Below, piece after piece: positions 15,195 to 64,000 of a stretch of 64,000 nucleotides of DNA. Both the position numbers and the translations under genes were made by a program. The notes beneath the pieces were generated by a model that saw only the letters and a list, made by a program, of their open reading frames with translations, searched no databases and was not told the DNA's origin. How positions within the stretch are numbered: the first letter of the stretch is position 1; each line of letters begins with the position of its first letter. This stretch comes from Lepisosteus oculatus (taxonomy: Eukaryota; Chordata; Actinopteri; Semionotiformes; Lepisosteidae): contig NC_090698.1 of the NCBI RefSeq assembly GCF_040954835.1, forward strand, positions 27,891,501 through 27,955,500, read 5' to 3'.

Positions 15195-15462
15195 CAGCAG
15201 GCAACGGGCACAAGGTAGGATGCACCCCAGACCAGATGCCAGTTCATCACAGGGCACACATAGATACACACATTTTCTGAGAAACCAATTAACCTACAAG
15301 TATGTGTTTGGACTGAGGGAGGACACCAAAGAACTCTGAAGAACCCTATGCAAATGCAGGGAGAACATGCAAACTCCACACAGGCAGCACCCCAGGAATT
15401 TCATTCAGGGCCCCAGAGCTACGAGGCAGCAATTCTAACCCCTGTGCTGCTGTGTCACCACA
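15195..15462 (-). repeat. V-SINE-like element, minus strand
   Basis: GGGAGAACATGCAAACTCCA and CACACAGGCAGC near 15359-15390 are the complement of the conserved V-SINE core. The complement of the head, GGCAGCAATTCTAACC, is near 15425. Diverged from the other copies. Confidence 0.75.
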
Positions 15463-20679: not shown

Positions 20680-20760
20680 AGCTTCTGTCTCTTGCATTTT
20701 TGCTGACTGCCCTATCTTTCTTACACCCGGAGAAGGCTCCACAGCCGAAATGTTGGGTTT
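20680..20760 (+). repeat. Decayed hammerhead-type repeat unit
   Basis: TTACACCCGGAGAAGGCTCC, then ACAGCCGAAATGTTG near 20721-20755, matches the intact unit at 54528-54561 but with CTGA changed to CCGG and GAAAC to GAAAT. The left flank TGACTGCCCTATCTTTCTTA resembles the flank of the copy at the window end. Confidence 0.7.
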
Positions 20761-39694: not shown

Positions 39695-40027
39695 ATAACT
39701 ATCATCCATCTATTTTCTAAGCACTTTATGAGGTTCACGGGAGAGCTGGTGTCTTCTGAAATGGGCGCAAGGCAGGGCACAGCCTGGATGGGGCACCAGT
39801 CCATCGTAGGGCAGACACAGACACTCAGTGTAAATTTACTCCAGGGTACATTTTCCAGAAGCCAATTAAACTCCCAGCGTGCCTTTAACCTGCAGGAGGA
39901 AGACAGTGTGCCCAGAGGAAGCCCACTTGTACATGGGAAGAACATACAAACTCCACACAGATAGCACTCCAGAAACTAAACCCAGGGCTCCAGTGCAATG
40001 CTAACCACTGTGCCACCGTGCTGTCAC
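39695..40027 (-). repeat. V-SINE-like element, minus strand
   Basis: ATCCATCTATTTTCTAAGCA at the left end, AACATACAAACTCCACACAG in the middle and CCACTGTGCCACCGTGCTGT at the right end are complements of the tail, core and head. Near full length. Confidence 0.8.
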
Positions 40028-45953: not shown

Positions 45954-46075
45954 TTCAGGTGGGTAGTTGCGCCAGCATGCGTAGGCTGCAAAGGAACAAG
46001 TAATAGGTTTATTCTATGCTGAAAAGAGAAGTAAGAAAACACGTTTCGGCTGTGGAGCCGAAATTTTCAGATTTG
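45954..46075 (-). repeat. Hammerhead-type repeat unit, single decayed copy
   Basis: The complement has the full unit seen at 54528-54648: core near 46042-46072, then GAATAAACCTATTACTTGTT and CAGCCTACGCATGCTGGCGC to ACCTGAA. Stem II is extended, but the CTGAAGA box is replaced by CTGAAAATT, so self-cleavage is unlikely. Confidence 0.85.
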
Positions 46076-49411: not shown

Positions 49412-50030
49412 GGCACTGCAGTGGTGTAGTGGTTAGAGTTCTATGTCAAAGCTCTTTGGATTAGGGTTGAATTCTGGCCTGGGGCTCTTTCTGTGTGGAG
49501 TGTGCATTTTCTTCCCATGTCATTACATGCTGATTAATTTGCATAGTTAAGTAAAGTGTGTGTGTGTGCGCTCTGTGATGGACTGGTGTTGGTGGTGGGG
49601 GACTACACACACTCAGTGTCTGCTGCTCCCAGCTGTCAGTCCTGGTCTAGGAATTACCTCCTTCGTTTGCTGTTTTTTTTTTTAACTGGACTCTTGGGTA
49701 CCCCTAGTGATTTGTGAGATTTGTAATCGGTATAAACCCTGTGCAAGCCAGCAGCCATATCACCCTGTGAAGCCAAGCAGGGTTGAGCCTGGTCAGTACT
49801 TGGATGGGAGACCTCCTGGGAAGCTGTGGTTGCTGCTGGAAGTGGTGTTAGTGAGACCAGCGGCCTTTCAACAGCCTCAAAATTGTCCACATGTATGATT
49901 GACTTGCACTTGCCCTGCGGTGGACTGGCACCCCGTCTAGGTTGTACCCTGCCTTGTGCTCGTTGTTTTCCAGGTAGGCTCCGGCTTCCCGCGACACTGT
50001 AAGGTATAAAGAGGTTTGGTAAATGACATT
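49412..50030 (+). repeat. V-SINE-like element split by a 5S-derived SINE
   Basis: Left part: GTGGTGTAGTGGTTAGAGTT and TTCTGTGTGGAGTGTGCATT, then CTCTGTGATGGACTGGTG. Right part from about 49905: CCCTGCGGTGGACTGGCACC and GCTCCGGCTTCCCGCGACAC. The 5S-derived piece at 49715-49870 lies between them. Because the phrase GATGGACTGG / GGTGGACTGG occurs on both sides, two adjacent V-SINE copies are also possible. Confidence 0.65.
49715..49870 (+). repeat. 5S-rRNA-derived SINE head
   Basis: AGCCAAGCAGGGTTGAGCCT, then GGTCAGTACTTGGATGGGAG and ACCTCCTGGGAA match the 5S rRNA A box, intermediate element and C box closely. It is a SINE3-type head and not a 5S gene: the 5' and 3' parts of 5S rRNA are missing and the body differs. 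Confidence 0.8.
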
Positions 50031-51237: not shown

Positions 51238-51790
51238 AGTCGATCCATCCATTCTCTTACTGCTTCATCCAATTCAGTTCAGTTTATTGTCATACGCACA
51301 GGTGCAATGAACTGCTTATTTGCATGTATGCTCCAATACAAAGACGTTAAAGGAATCACCAAAAACATAAACACAAAGCAGCAGCAACAACAACAACAAG
51401 TTAAATAATATACAACTTAAAAAAAAAAGTCAGGCAAGCAGTGTGAGGGAAAAAAACATCAGTGTGAGCCAGTGGTAGGGGTAGAGTTCAGTAATCTGAC
51501 AGCTTGTGGGAAGAAACAATGGTGGAGCTGTAGCCTAAGTAAGCAGTGGGTGCAAGGCAGGGTACACCTTGGATGGGACATCAGTCCACTGCAGGGCCCA
51601 CACACGCAGATACACACACTCACAGCAGGGCCAATTCTCCCAGAAGGTCTTTGGCCTGTGGAAGGAAACAGGAAAACCCAGAGAAAATCCACATGAACAG
51701 AGGGAGAACATACAAACTCAACGCAGGCAGCACCCCAGAATATCCCACAGCCCCAGCGCTTTGAGGCAGCACCGCTAACCATTGGGACAT
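51238..51790 (-). repeat. V-SINE-like element interrupted by a LINE-type insert
   Basis: Tail complement GATCCATCCATTCTCTTACT at 51242, core and head complement at 51545-51790 (GGGAGAACATACAAACTCAA, GAGGCAGCACCGCTAACCAT). The two parts are separated by an unrelated repeat at 51276-51540. Confidence 0.75.
51276..51540 (-). mobile_element. LINE-type 3' fragment nested in V-SINE
   Basis: CAGTTTATTGTCATACGCAC and AGTAATCTGACAGCTTGTGG with GAAGAAAC are widespread fish repeat phrases from the 3' part of a non-LTR element, on the complement strand. Short CAA repeats lie at 51385-51400. Confidence 0.55.
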
Positions 51791-54305: not shown

Positions 54306-54492
54306 ATGTATTGTTTTTTTTATTGTTAAATCACTATTTAAGATTTTACAAACAGAACTTATGAGGTGTGCTTCTTCTTAGAAGTCCACAATAGAGCTCA
54401 CATTAGTGCTAAAGATGTGTTAATATGACCTAATACACTGTAAAGGAACAAGTAATAGGTTTATTCCATGCTGAAAAAAAGAAGAAAGAGAA

Positions 54493-54526
54493 CACAACGT
54501 TTCGGCCGTGGAGCCTTCTTCAGGTG
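54493..54526 (-). ncRNA. Candidate minimal hammerhead ribozyme, left arm
   Basis: Exact mirror of the right-arm motif on the opposite strand, with the same boxes and stems. Confidence 0.6.
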
Positions 54527-54527
54527 T

Positions 54528-54561
54528 CACCTGAAGAAGGCTCCACGGCCGAAACGTTGTG
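54528..54561 (+). ncRNA. Candidate minimal hammerhead ribozyme, right arm
   Basis: CTGAAGA (54531-54537) fits the CUGANGA box and GAAAC (54551-54555) the second box. Stem II pairs GGCT (54539-54542) with GGCC (54547-54550) around a CCAC loop. Stem I pairs CAC (54528-54530) with GTG (54559-54561). ACGT (54554-54557) is a palindromic two-pair stem III as in dimer-type hammerheads, and T54558 would be the cleavage-site base. One extra A at 54538 departs from the standard form. Activity is inferred. Confidence 0.6.
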
Positions 54562-54679
54562 TTCTCTTTCTTCTTTTTTTCAGCATGGAATAAACCTATT
54601 ACTTGTTCCTTTGCAGCCTACGCATGCTGACGCAGCTACCCACCTGAACTAATACACTGTAGCTATTTTGTAAATAAAT

Positions 54680-56592: not shown

Positions 56593-56923
56593 GGGCAGTA
56601 CGGTGGCATGGTGGTTAGCATTGCTGCCTCGCAGCGCTGGGGCCCTGGGTTCAATTCCAAACCTGGGATGCTGTCTGTGTGGAGTTTGCATGTTCTCACC
56701 ATGTTCATGTGGGTTTCCTCCAGGTGTTCCTGTTTCCTCCCACAGGCCAAAGACGTACTGGTAGGTTAATAGGCTTCTGTGGGAAATTGGCCCTGGTGTG
56801 AGAGTGTGCATGTTTGTGTCTGTGTGTGCCCCGTGATGGACTGGCGTCCCGTTCAGGGTGTATCCTGCCGTGGGCACGTTGCTTGCCGGGCTCCCATGTG
56901 ACCCTGAATTGGATGATGAATGG
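56593..56923 (+). mobile_element. V-SINE, full length with target duplication
   Basis: Complete element with head GGCAGTACGGTGGCATGGTG, B-box-like GGGTTCAATTCC, core GTGTGGAGTTTGCATGTTCT and tail GACCCTGAATTGGATG. It is flanked by a perfect 11-bp duplication CTTAAATAAGA (56582-56592 and 56924-56934), so this copy is comparatively young. Confidence 0.93.
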
Positions 56924-62100: not shown

Positions 62101-63835
62101 AAGAAACAGATGAAGCTCAGAGAAAACTATTCTCATTTGAGTTGTAAAACTATGGAAACAATTTGCTGTGGACTGCCCTTTTGCTTTTTGGATTTTTTTT
62201 TGTTTGGCGACTTACCTTGGTGGGTTGGTGGAAATGGCATGTTTTTATTGTTCCAGAAAGGGTAGGCTATTAAATGCAAAAGCAGTGCAATCGATTTCCT
62301 GTCCTCCAGCTATACCTTTAGATTTTGTATGACCTAACCAGGGTTTTTTTGTTACTCCTCCTTGATGCTTCATATTTTACATGGGTTATTTACAACAGTA
62401 ATAAATGAAATGCCTTATGCTTTATAAGTTGAAGCCTGAGTGTTCTTCACCTCTTTTATTTTTGTTGTAAATAGAGCTTTGTTATCTACCTGTGTGCATT
62501 TCACAATAGTAGTTAGGTATAGAAACCTTGGCATACAGGCATTGGGAATAAGAAAATGATATAGCAGAGCCCAAAGACATACTTGTGGGATACATGATAT
62601 AAATGTACAGAATAATTCGAGGCCAGAGTAACAGACTCTCAAATAGGGAGGAATATCCAACTCTGGTTCTGTAGGGTGGCTGTTTTTATAGGTCTCTGGA
62701 AGTCTTCAGCTTGTTAAGAACAAGGACAAACTTCTCATTAAACACGCCATGGGCTCAGATTGGTAATAAGGGTTCAGGCGGAAAGAAAACTCTATTAGCC
62801 CTCTGGTCCTCCTGTAGTATACTTTTAAAACAGCACTTCTATGGCTGGGTATTCCCACAGCACACGGCAAGTCTTTCCTTCTGTCTGGTGAGTCTGTGTC
62901 TGAGCTCCCTGCTTTCCTTGCAAGTTCAGTCCTTCTTGTACTTCCTCAGCTTGTTGATCAAGATGAAAATTGATCGGGTATCACAAGTGTTCGGGGTTTA
63001 CTTTGATTACTCTCAGTAGAACACGAGAGAGAATATTTGCAGAAATCTGGATCCTCGTATTTGGCAGTTTGGTTTTGAAACTCACATTTGCCTGTTGTAA
63101 TTAGGAGTCATATTTTGTGTAGGGGATGAAGGCCGGACACCTGGTCCTAATGATAATTCACACCTAATCAGTGCAAAACAGATGAGTTTTTTAAGATGGG
63201 GCCCCGATATGTGCAGAATTCATTTCTTTGGGCATTTTTACATCCTACGTTTTTGTTAAATCAATTAATGGATATTTCAGGGACCATTAAGGTTTTAAAG
63301 CTTGAAGAGACTCCTGAGCAGAGCAGTAGGACTTTCAGTAATTGACCCAAGTGCCTACTCTAGATGTTAAGTTCTTACTCAGGAAGATTGGGATTTGTCT
63401 TATTATATGTCCTCCCAATTTGAAATGGCCAGTTGTTTTACAGCCAGGCTGTGTGGCGGTGATTCCTGTACCCACTCGGGAGAGATCTGAAAACATACCC
63501 ACCTGCTCAGCCATTCATCATTTGACAATTAGTGCAAATCAGAGTGGACTTCACAGCTGGTTTATGAGAGCTGGGAGAACCTAGATTAATTCCATCACTA
63601 CAGCTGTGGTGCTTGAATAGCCTCCTGTGAATTTTCACTAGGATAGTCTCGGTCCCGCCCAACTGGTGCCTTGACTGAGGCTTGAACTGATGACGGTTTT
63701 CCGAACTCATACATCAGAAAGACCACCGAAACTAAAATTATTCTGCAGTTAGGATCACACATTCTCCCTTCCCTTAACGACAGATTACTGTTCTTTTAAA
63801 TTTTCTCCATTCATTGGGAGTTTCATTTCACACCT
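59130..63835. other. Long non-coding stretch, little recognised
   Basis: AT-rich, with a LINE-tail-like fragment at about 60485-60545 (TTGTACAAGGAATTTGATCT) and a more CpG-containing part at 61030-61560. I cannot support an exon. Confidence 0.45.
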
Positions 63836-64000
63836 CTCTGCAGCCATTCTGACTTCACACCTCTTGATTGGCCTCTCTTTCTGTCCCCTGCTCCCGCCTC
63901 TCACTCCTCCTCCATCCCAACCTTTTGTTCTCCCGCTACTTTACCTTTGCCTACTGCCCTGTCTCTCTCACACCTGAAGAAGGCTCCACGGCCGAAACGT
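63835..64000 (+). mobile_element. Hammerhead-type repeat, cut by the window end
   Basis: Pyrimidine-rich lead (CTACTGCCCTGTCTCTCTCA) followed by CAC (63971-63973), CTGAAGA (63974-63980), the same stem II and GAAAC (63994-63998). The window ends right after ACGT. All visible core bases match the intact unit at 54528. The lead sequence also precedes the decayed copy at 20727. Confidence 0.75.

Follow-up and report, generated by a model that had tools for sequence, protein, structure and literature searches.

A Penelope-like element palindrome in Lepisosteus oculatus and its kin pair one long with one short 3′ end

Penelope-like elements (PLEs) are relatives of telomerase whose mode of insertion is unsettled: self-priming on antisense RNA was put forward in 2013, and extension of both strands in vitro was described in 2024. 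For Adineta vaga PLEs, Pen2a_Av among others, the available passages of PMC3846280 describe head-to-head pLTRs with palindromic junctions, target duplications (8–10 bp in the examples cited) and a 31-bp ‘tail’ that one of the inverted pLTRs may carry; they favour self-priming on an antisense template. According to the available part of PMC11167929, the purified PLE protein of Anolis carolinensis (Poseidon, PAc) cuts and extends both strands in vitro, and reverse transcription starts at two internal RNA sites that bound a 30–40-bp tail. The same passages report AT-rich targets and a hammerhead motif at the pLTR–ORF junction, and state that the start site is non-homologous to the cut DNA. Inverted pLTRs and short 3′ extensions appear in the excerpts of PMC8969392 as peculiarities of individual copies.

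Here we describe a palindrome in the genome of the gar Lepisosteus oculatus. It lies in a window of 64,000 nucleotides, by which we mean the whole stretch of DNA that was analysed. The repeated unit is numbered from A1 of ACACCTGAAG, so that the left arm runs from unit position 85 to 2 and the right arm from 2 to 122; all features are collected in Table 1. The original prediction described two exact 84-bp inverted arms around one base, flanked by a 13-bp target duplication, and claimed that the whole had inserted at once. The sequence bears this out: the arms are exact reverse complements at 84/84 positions, the duplication is present on both sides, and since a single duplication encloses both arms the palindrome goes back to one insertion event. 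The right arm carries 37 extra bases that have no partner on the left, and the two halves are therefore unequal, with 84 and 121 bp. In a repeat search the arms come out longer, at 89 nt (99%), since the left duplication ends in 5 bases similar to the unit. The palindrome is a real feature, of an already known kind.

Table 1. Features of the palindrome and further copies of its family in the window
Feature	Position	Strand	Remarks
Left copy of target-site duplication	54430..54442	.	13 bp, CTAATACACTGTA
Short arm	54443..54526	-	PLE unit positions 85 to 2; outer end at the short 3′ end of the family (..CTTGTTCCTT)
Palindrome centre	54527	.	Unit position 1 (A) on the minus strand; family copies preferably have their 5′ end here
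Long arm, shared part	54528..54611	+	Unit 2 to 85; exact reverse complement of the short arm
Tail, long arm only	54612..54648	+	Unit 86 to 122; ends at the long 3′ end of the family (..CCACCTGAA)
Right copy of target-site duplication	54649..54661	.	CTAATACACTGTA
Hammerhead-like motif, right arm	54528..54562	+	Motif level only; CAC-CUGAAGA-..-GAAA-..-GUGU, without an A at position 1 of the unit
Same hammerhead-like motif, left arm	54492..54527	-	ACAC-CUGAAGA-..-GAAA-..-GUGU
Old family remnant	20699..20759	+	84%
Older single copy	45954..46059	-	Unit 13 to 122, 90%, long end
Longer single copy	63692..64000	+	Unit -276 to 79, 98%, short end; runs 48 bases past the window

Three further members of the family are found in the window, and the longer single copy has a 15-bp repeat (CTTGAACTGATGACG) on either side that lies partly within the aligned element. 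The window also holds a stretch similar to 5S rRNA at 49747–49841 (Rfam RF00001, 60.8 bits); it may be a pseudogene or a SINE derived from 5S. A different dispersed repeat is present in inverted copies with 74–84% complementarity at 15280–15396, 39915–39972, 51637–51738 and 56662–56778.

The unit is the terminal pLTR/tail region of a PLE. Genome-wide counts were made by exact sequence patterns in the 1.2-Gb genome; one exact 27-mer taken from the unit has 4,644 matches (2,334 + 2,310) against 0 for the control, so chance is excluded. Longer copies of the unit adjoin coding sequence with a C-terminal GIY-YIG-like endonuclease (Pfam E 0.0016; 19.2 bits, below the curated Pfam cut-off of 22.6), and with this PLE-type coding sequence the Penelope-type identity proposed in the original prediction held up. 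For the 294-aa frame of the element 725 homologues were found. The best among the matches listed is 97% identical and comes from L. oculatus, as does another at 91%. The 120 of the 725 homologues that were listed carry PF26215, which we take to be an HTH domain, and some of them also RVT_1 and/or GIY-YIG. A GIY-YIG-like endonuclease together with RVT_1/PF26215 homologues is the architecture of Penelope-like elements. The reverse transcriptase of the gar element itself was recognised by eye, Pfam giving no RT match for that frame, and presumably has a Neptune-like look; Pfam searches at 1e-3 with three frames and a search of PDB sequences with one frame returned no matches. Further features of PLE membership were found along with the reverse transcriptase and C-terminal GIY-YIG: the pLTR has an optional 3′ tail in the 30–40-bp range, its two 3′ ends lying ~37 nt apart, and the target duplication is variable and lies in AT-rich DNA.

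The original prediction regarded an inverted junction as unusual. We searched the genome for head-to-head and head-to-tail copies, and this view was overturned: one strict pattern finds 545 head-to-head pairs, against 4 head-to-tail places at 3 loci when an equal gap range and looser letters are used. The first 100 places on contig C1 give the same picture, as the 16 pairs of neighbours no more than 150 bp apart are without exception head-to-head and 0 are tandem; two further head-to-head pairs lie 1.6–1.7 kb apart. Nine of these 100 places were excluded because they belong to a tandem array of U1/5S genes (L053, possibly a tenth array place, was kept as a single copy). The 91 remaining places represent 73 insertions, of which 31 are head-to-head and 42 single. 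With 9 of 100 places inside the array, one PLE insertion seems to have been amplified together with it. The stretch examined at C1:6509000–6517500 (L046) is a tandem array with a period of ~6.44 kb that carries U1 snRNA and 5S rRNA genes, and both array repeats touched by it each hold one PLE unit copy.

Target duplications of at least 8 bp surround 26 of the 31 dimers in this first sample but only 8 of 598 mispaired flanks. For dissection we added 39 further dimers, all those newly listed among the matches of the strict head-to-head pattern, which requires the core to be exact in each arm and the centre to be short, and left the window dimer out, giving 70 dimers. Target duplications of at least 9 bp are present in 65 of the 70, 5 being without a 9-bp duplication; 13–15 bp are found in 51 of the 70, and the mean A+T content of the 65 is 79%. 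These numbers bear on the idea that a dimer arises stepwise, by a later insertion landing at the 5′ end of an earlier copy. Tandem and partial-tandem PLE arrays are reported in the available part of PMC11167929, so close neighbours are not unexpected; yet in those 65 dimers one duplication encloses the whole dimer, and head-to-tail neighbours at similar spacing are so few beside the head-to-head ones that we consider successive insertion extremely unlikely.

The unit has two alternative 3′ ends, a short one mostly at position 79–88 and a long one at 117–122 or slightly beyond. Single copies use both: 19 of 42 are short-ended (near 80–90), 21 long-ended (near 116–122) and 2 end at 103. An own target duplication of at least 9 bp is present in 8 of the 19 short-ended and 6 of the 21 long-ended single copies, and the short end is therefore usable alone. 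In the dimers the two ends are strictly combined, as 69 of 70 pair a long with a short end, 0 are long+long and 1 is short+short (L045), with short defined as up to 91 and long as 112 or more, limits that were chosen after seeing the data. The ends of L091 and L126 were assigned by their target duplications and those of L100 and L124 by omitting an older neighbouring fragment. If ends were chosen independently and 50:50, at least 69 unequal dimers out of 70 would have a probability of 6e-20. Of the 65 dimers whose target duplication measures 9 bp or more, every one is long+short, and no two of them have the same duplication. When the target duplication is subtracted, the short end falls at 79–88 in 56 of these 65 dimers and at 48–78 in the other 9.

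Perfect inverted arms within a direct duplication might also come from an assembly artefact, or from a DNA transposon or foldback element whose inverted repeats are long. That the arms are the ordinary inverted repeat of a DNA transposon had been named as one finding that would overturn the original prediction; it was checked and does not hold. The fixed, matching terminal inverted repeats of a TIR DNA transposon or MITE are missing from the 70 dimers, as outer ends are unequal in 69 of them and shift by several bases. Moreover, single copies are as common as dimers (42 of 73 insertions), and the longer copies adjoin the coding sequence described above. Against assembly artefacts as a general cause stand the 65 different target duplications; three places with mirrored flanks (L045, L129 and L135) could be of that kind. 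Taken as a whole, we hardly give this explanation any credence.

The pairing of ends was also counted across the genome. Matches to ‘long arm facing any arm’ number 873 (436 + 437), in which each long+short dimer counts once, and those to ‘long facing long’ number 8. As the exact tail word is held by 59 of the 69 long arms of the dimer sample, independent choice predicts far more than 100 long/long places. Among the 8, no place has two long outer ends enclosed by a duplication of 9 bp or more. Seven of them, including L129 and L135 with their mirrored flanks, have no 9-bp duplication and arms that are 78–96% like the unit; with such divergence a duplication could have decayed there, and true long/long events might conceivably be among these seven. 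The eighth (L134) has arms 99–100% like the family and a further tandem unit, and its outer ends are a long and a short one within the 13-bp duplication AACTTTCTAAAAA. Two of the diverged long/long places, L130 and L131, have sequence in common past unit position 122, and there the RNA start may lie further downstream or the copies may belong to a related subfamily. The short+short dimer L045 lies, without any target duplication, between flanks that are inverted with respect to each other and match. By eye the mirrored flank extends over ~44 bp at L045, >70 bp at L129 and 16 bp at L135, all three without a target duplication; these places could be inverted duplications or assembly artefacts.

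In contrast to the two 3′ ends, the 5′ end is a common one: 84 of 140 dimer arms and 20 of 42 single copies start within -3 to 4 of unit position 1. Longer copies read TCACACC around this position. The initiator consensus is YYANWYY, and on the strength of this fit unit position 1 is probably the transcription start. The short unit would then be a reverse transcription product begun 85–122 nt from the 5′ end of the messenger. Alternatively, the shared 5′ end may reflect a stop at the hammerhead-like structure, which begins at the same base.

If the target primes reverse transcription, its overhangs may be able to pair with the element RNA. Microhomology is seen directly at both outer ends: at the 65 sites the overlap between target and RNA amounts to 1.48 bases at the short end versus 0.70 in controls (P 1e-10) and to 1.94 versus 0.74 bases at the long end (P 3e-14), where controls are cuts shifted by 3–14 bases within the same targets. 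A test with permuted targets agrees, but is biased because a maximal duplication can take in a base by chance. For the copy in the window, the CTGTA at the end of the left overhang faces UGCAG in the RNA, which gives four pairs and one G–T wobble. The available passages of PMC3846280 explain head-to-head pLTRs with palindromic junctions in another way, as proposed for rotifer Penelope elements: an antisense PLE transcript primes itself and the resulting hairpin is inserted. Matching outer ends would be expected from such a hairpin, yet they are unequal in 69 of the 70 dimers, and the microhomology found at either end suggests that the target did the priming. For the gar dimers we therefore judge this route very unlikely.

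At the centre of the 70 dimers, 29 junctions hold 1–43 extra bases and 39 abut or overlap by up to 4 bases. Several of the longer junction inserts repeat pieces of the unit (for example in L043 and L073), and in L037 and L042 hundreds of bases of longer PLE sequence lie between the aligned parts. Microhomology-mediated end joining leaves such junctions. The centres resemble its products, and polymerase switching could do likewise. The original prediction offered a template switch onto the opposite strand as the mechanism. In this reading, or in that of a fold-back, one cDNA primed at the long site would turn at its 5′ end and copy itself. Such a fold-back would produce a palindromic junction and identical arms as in the window, and pieces of the unit do lie between the arms in some junctions. 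A self-copied arm cannot exceed the first arm, yet in 25 of the 70 dimers the upstream limit of the short arm lies beyond that of the long arm by 5 nt or more (the opposite is seen in 15 of 70). Small differences may result from alignment or from a later central deletion; deletions confined to one arm, a contrived assumption, would be needed for L005, L020, L024 and L072, where the upstream limits of the short and the long arm are -425 versus 1, -98 versus 70, 1 versus 39 and 1 versus 33, respectively. Nor does a fold-back predict that the second arm stops at a site that ends single copies too, and the outer edges of the dimers are the two end sites of the single copies. The template switch is thus disfavoured, and we regard it as unlikely.

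L020 consists of adjacent, barely overlapping pieces of one transcript, with the short arm covering -98 to 70–73 and the long arm 70–122, which is a hint that one RNA is able to serve both strands. The arms within one dimer differ by 3.5% and those of different dimers by 3.4% (29 dimers); the source copies are too alike for arm variants to tell one RNA template from two.

Very probably, then, the palindrome represents one PLE insertion by target-primed reverse transcription on both DNA strands, with the two cDNAs joined head to head. A staggered cut by the PLE enzyme would leave two 13-base 3′ overhangs, and the 3′ end of each would pair by a few bases with the element RNA and prime a cDNA. 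One cDNA would start at the long site (unit ~122) and the other at the short site (unit ~85), and both would extend to the same 5′ end of the RNA (unit 1, initiator-like). Joining the cDNA ends head to head would yield unequal inverted arms within one target duplication. By analogy with the Anolis PLE, the two 3′ ends would be start sites of reverse transcription in the gar element; a single RNA held in a protein dimer would serve both strands, and host end joining would make the centre. The unequal but regular ends suggest that the enzyme of the element copies RNA onto both cut strands, and priming on both strands would fit the in vitro data for the Anolis PLE.

Whether the enzyme works as a two-headed machine, i.e. 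as a dimer on one RNA in which each reverse transcriptase has its own fixed start site per strand, we see as evenly balanced. If it does, a complete double-sided insertion would always have one long and one short end, and the insertions of 85–122 nt would be ‘strong-stop’ products that run off the ordinary 5′ end of the mRNA. Double-ended insertions indicate that the two ends are primed separately, at complementary sites, and hundreds of natural ones in a single genome constitute a record of the reaction. Through the one-long-one-short rule, an odd palindrome becomes evidence of an insertion reaction with two ends. Filling both overhangs of a staggered cut could also be of interest for RNA-templated DNA insertion tools.

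The original prediction also called the unit hammerhead-bearing. The CUGAAGA/GAAA motif behind this label is present in both arms, and an Rfam search of the palindrome gave no hammerhead match at E values up to 10. By eye, a stem I of 3–4 bp and a stem II of 3 bp can be drawn, with one extra A and almost no stem III. The minimum-energy fold of the motif stretch differs from a hammerhead, and single-strand folding of unit and tail pieces gave no structure above shuffles (z -0.1 to -1.5). The likeness is one of motif only, and the hammerhead appears to be degenerate; the proposed insertion mechanism would need no hammerhead step. MiRNA-like and snoRNA-like Rfam matches all stayed under their family cut-offs and were taken as chance matches to the long hairpin.

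Plant retrozymes are small non-coding units with two LTRs, a hammerhead motif and tandem processing. The gar unit is likewise small and non-coding, with a hammerhead-like motif. Unlike in retrozymes, where two LTRs surround a non-coding core, no direct LTR pair was found at the window locus, close tandems are rare and no cleavage role was seen. In L1 twin priming both target overhangs prime on the element RNA and the products join head to head; the internal site used by the second primer varies, and there is usually no duplication of the inverted part. L020 looks like such a product. The other gar insertions are unlike it in that the primers mostly use sites ~37 nt apart and the inverted part is duplicated. 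Compared with PAc of Anolis, short matches between target and RNA are enriched in gar, whereas the available account of PAc (PMC11167929) reports no such homology, nor the joining of two extended strands or the use of one start of each kind. We did not find the one-long-one-short rule stated in the PLE literature searched, in which few subscription papers were covered; the available parts of PMC8969392, PMC7599744 and PMC12910113 contain no such statement. The gar dimers are most like the Adineta vaga PLEs, with which they share head-to-head pLTRs, target duplications, palindromic junctions and a one-sided tail. As far as the available passages on A. vaga go, the inverted pLTR is there found beside longer insertions and in few copies. 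In gar, by contrast, most dissected dimers consist only of the 85–122-nt terminal unit, occur in hundreds of copies and combine one long with one short end. The inverted pLTR arrangement is a known trait of PLEs, and the strict one-long-one-short rule is the new result here.
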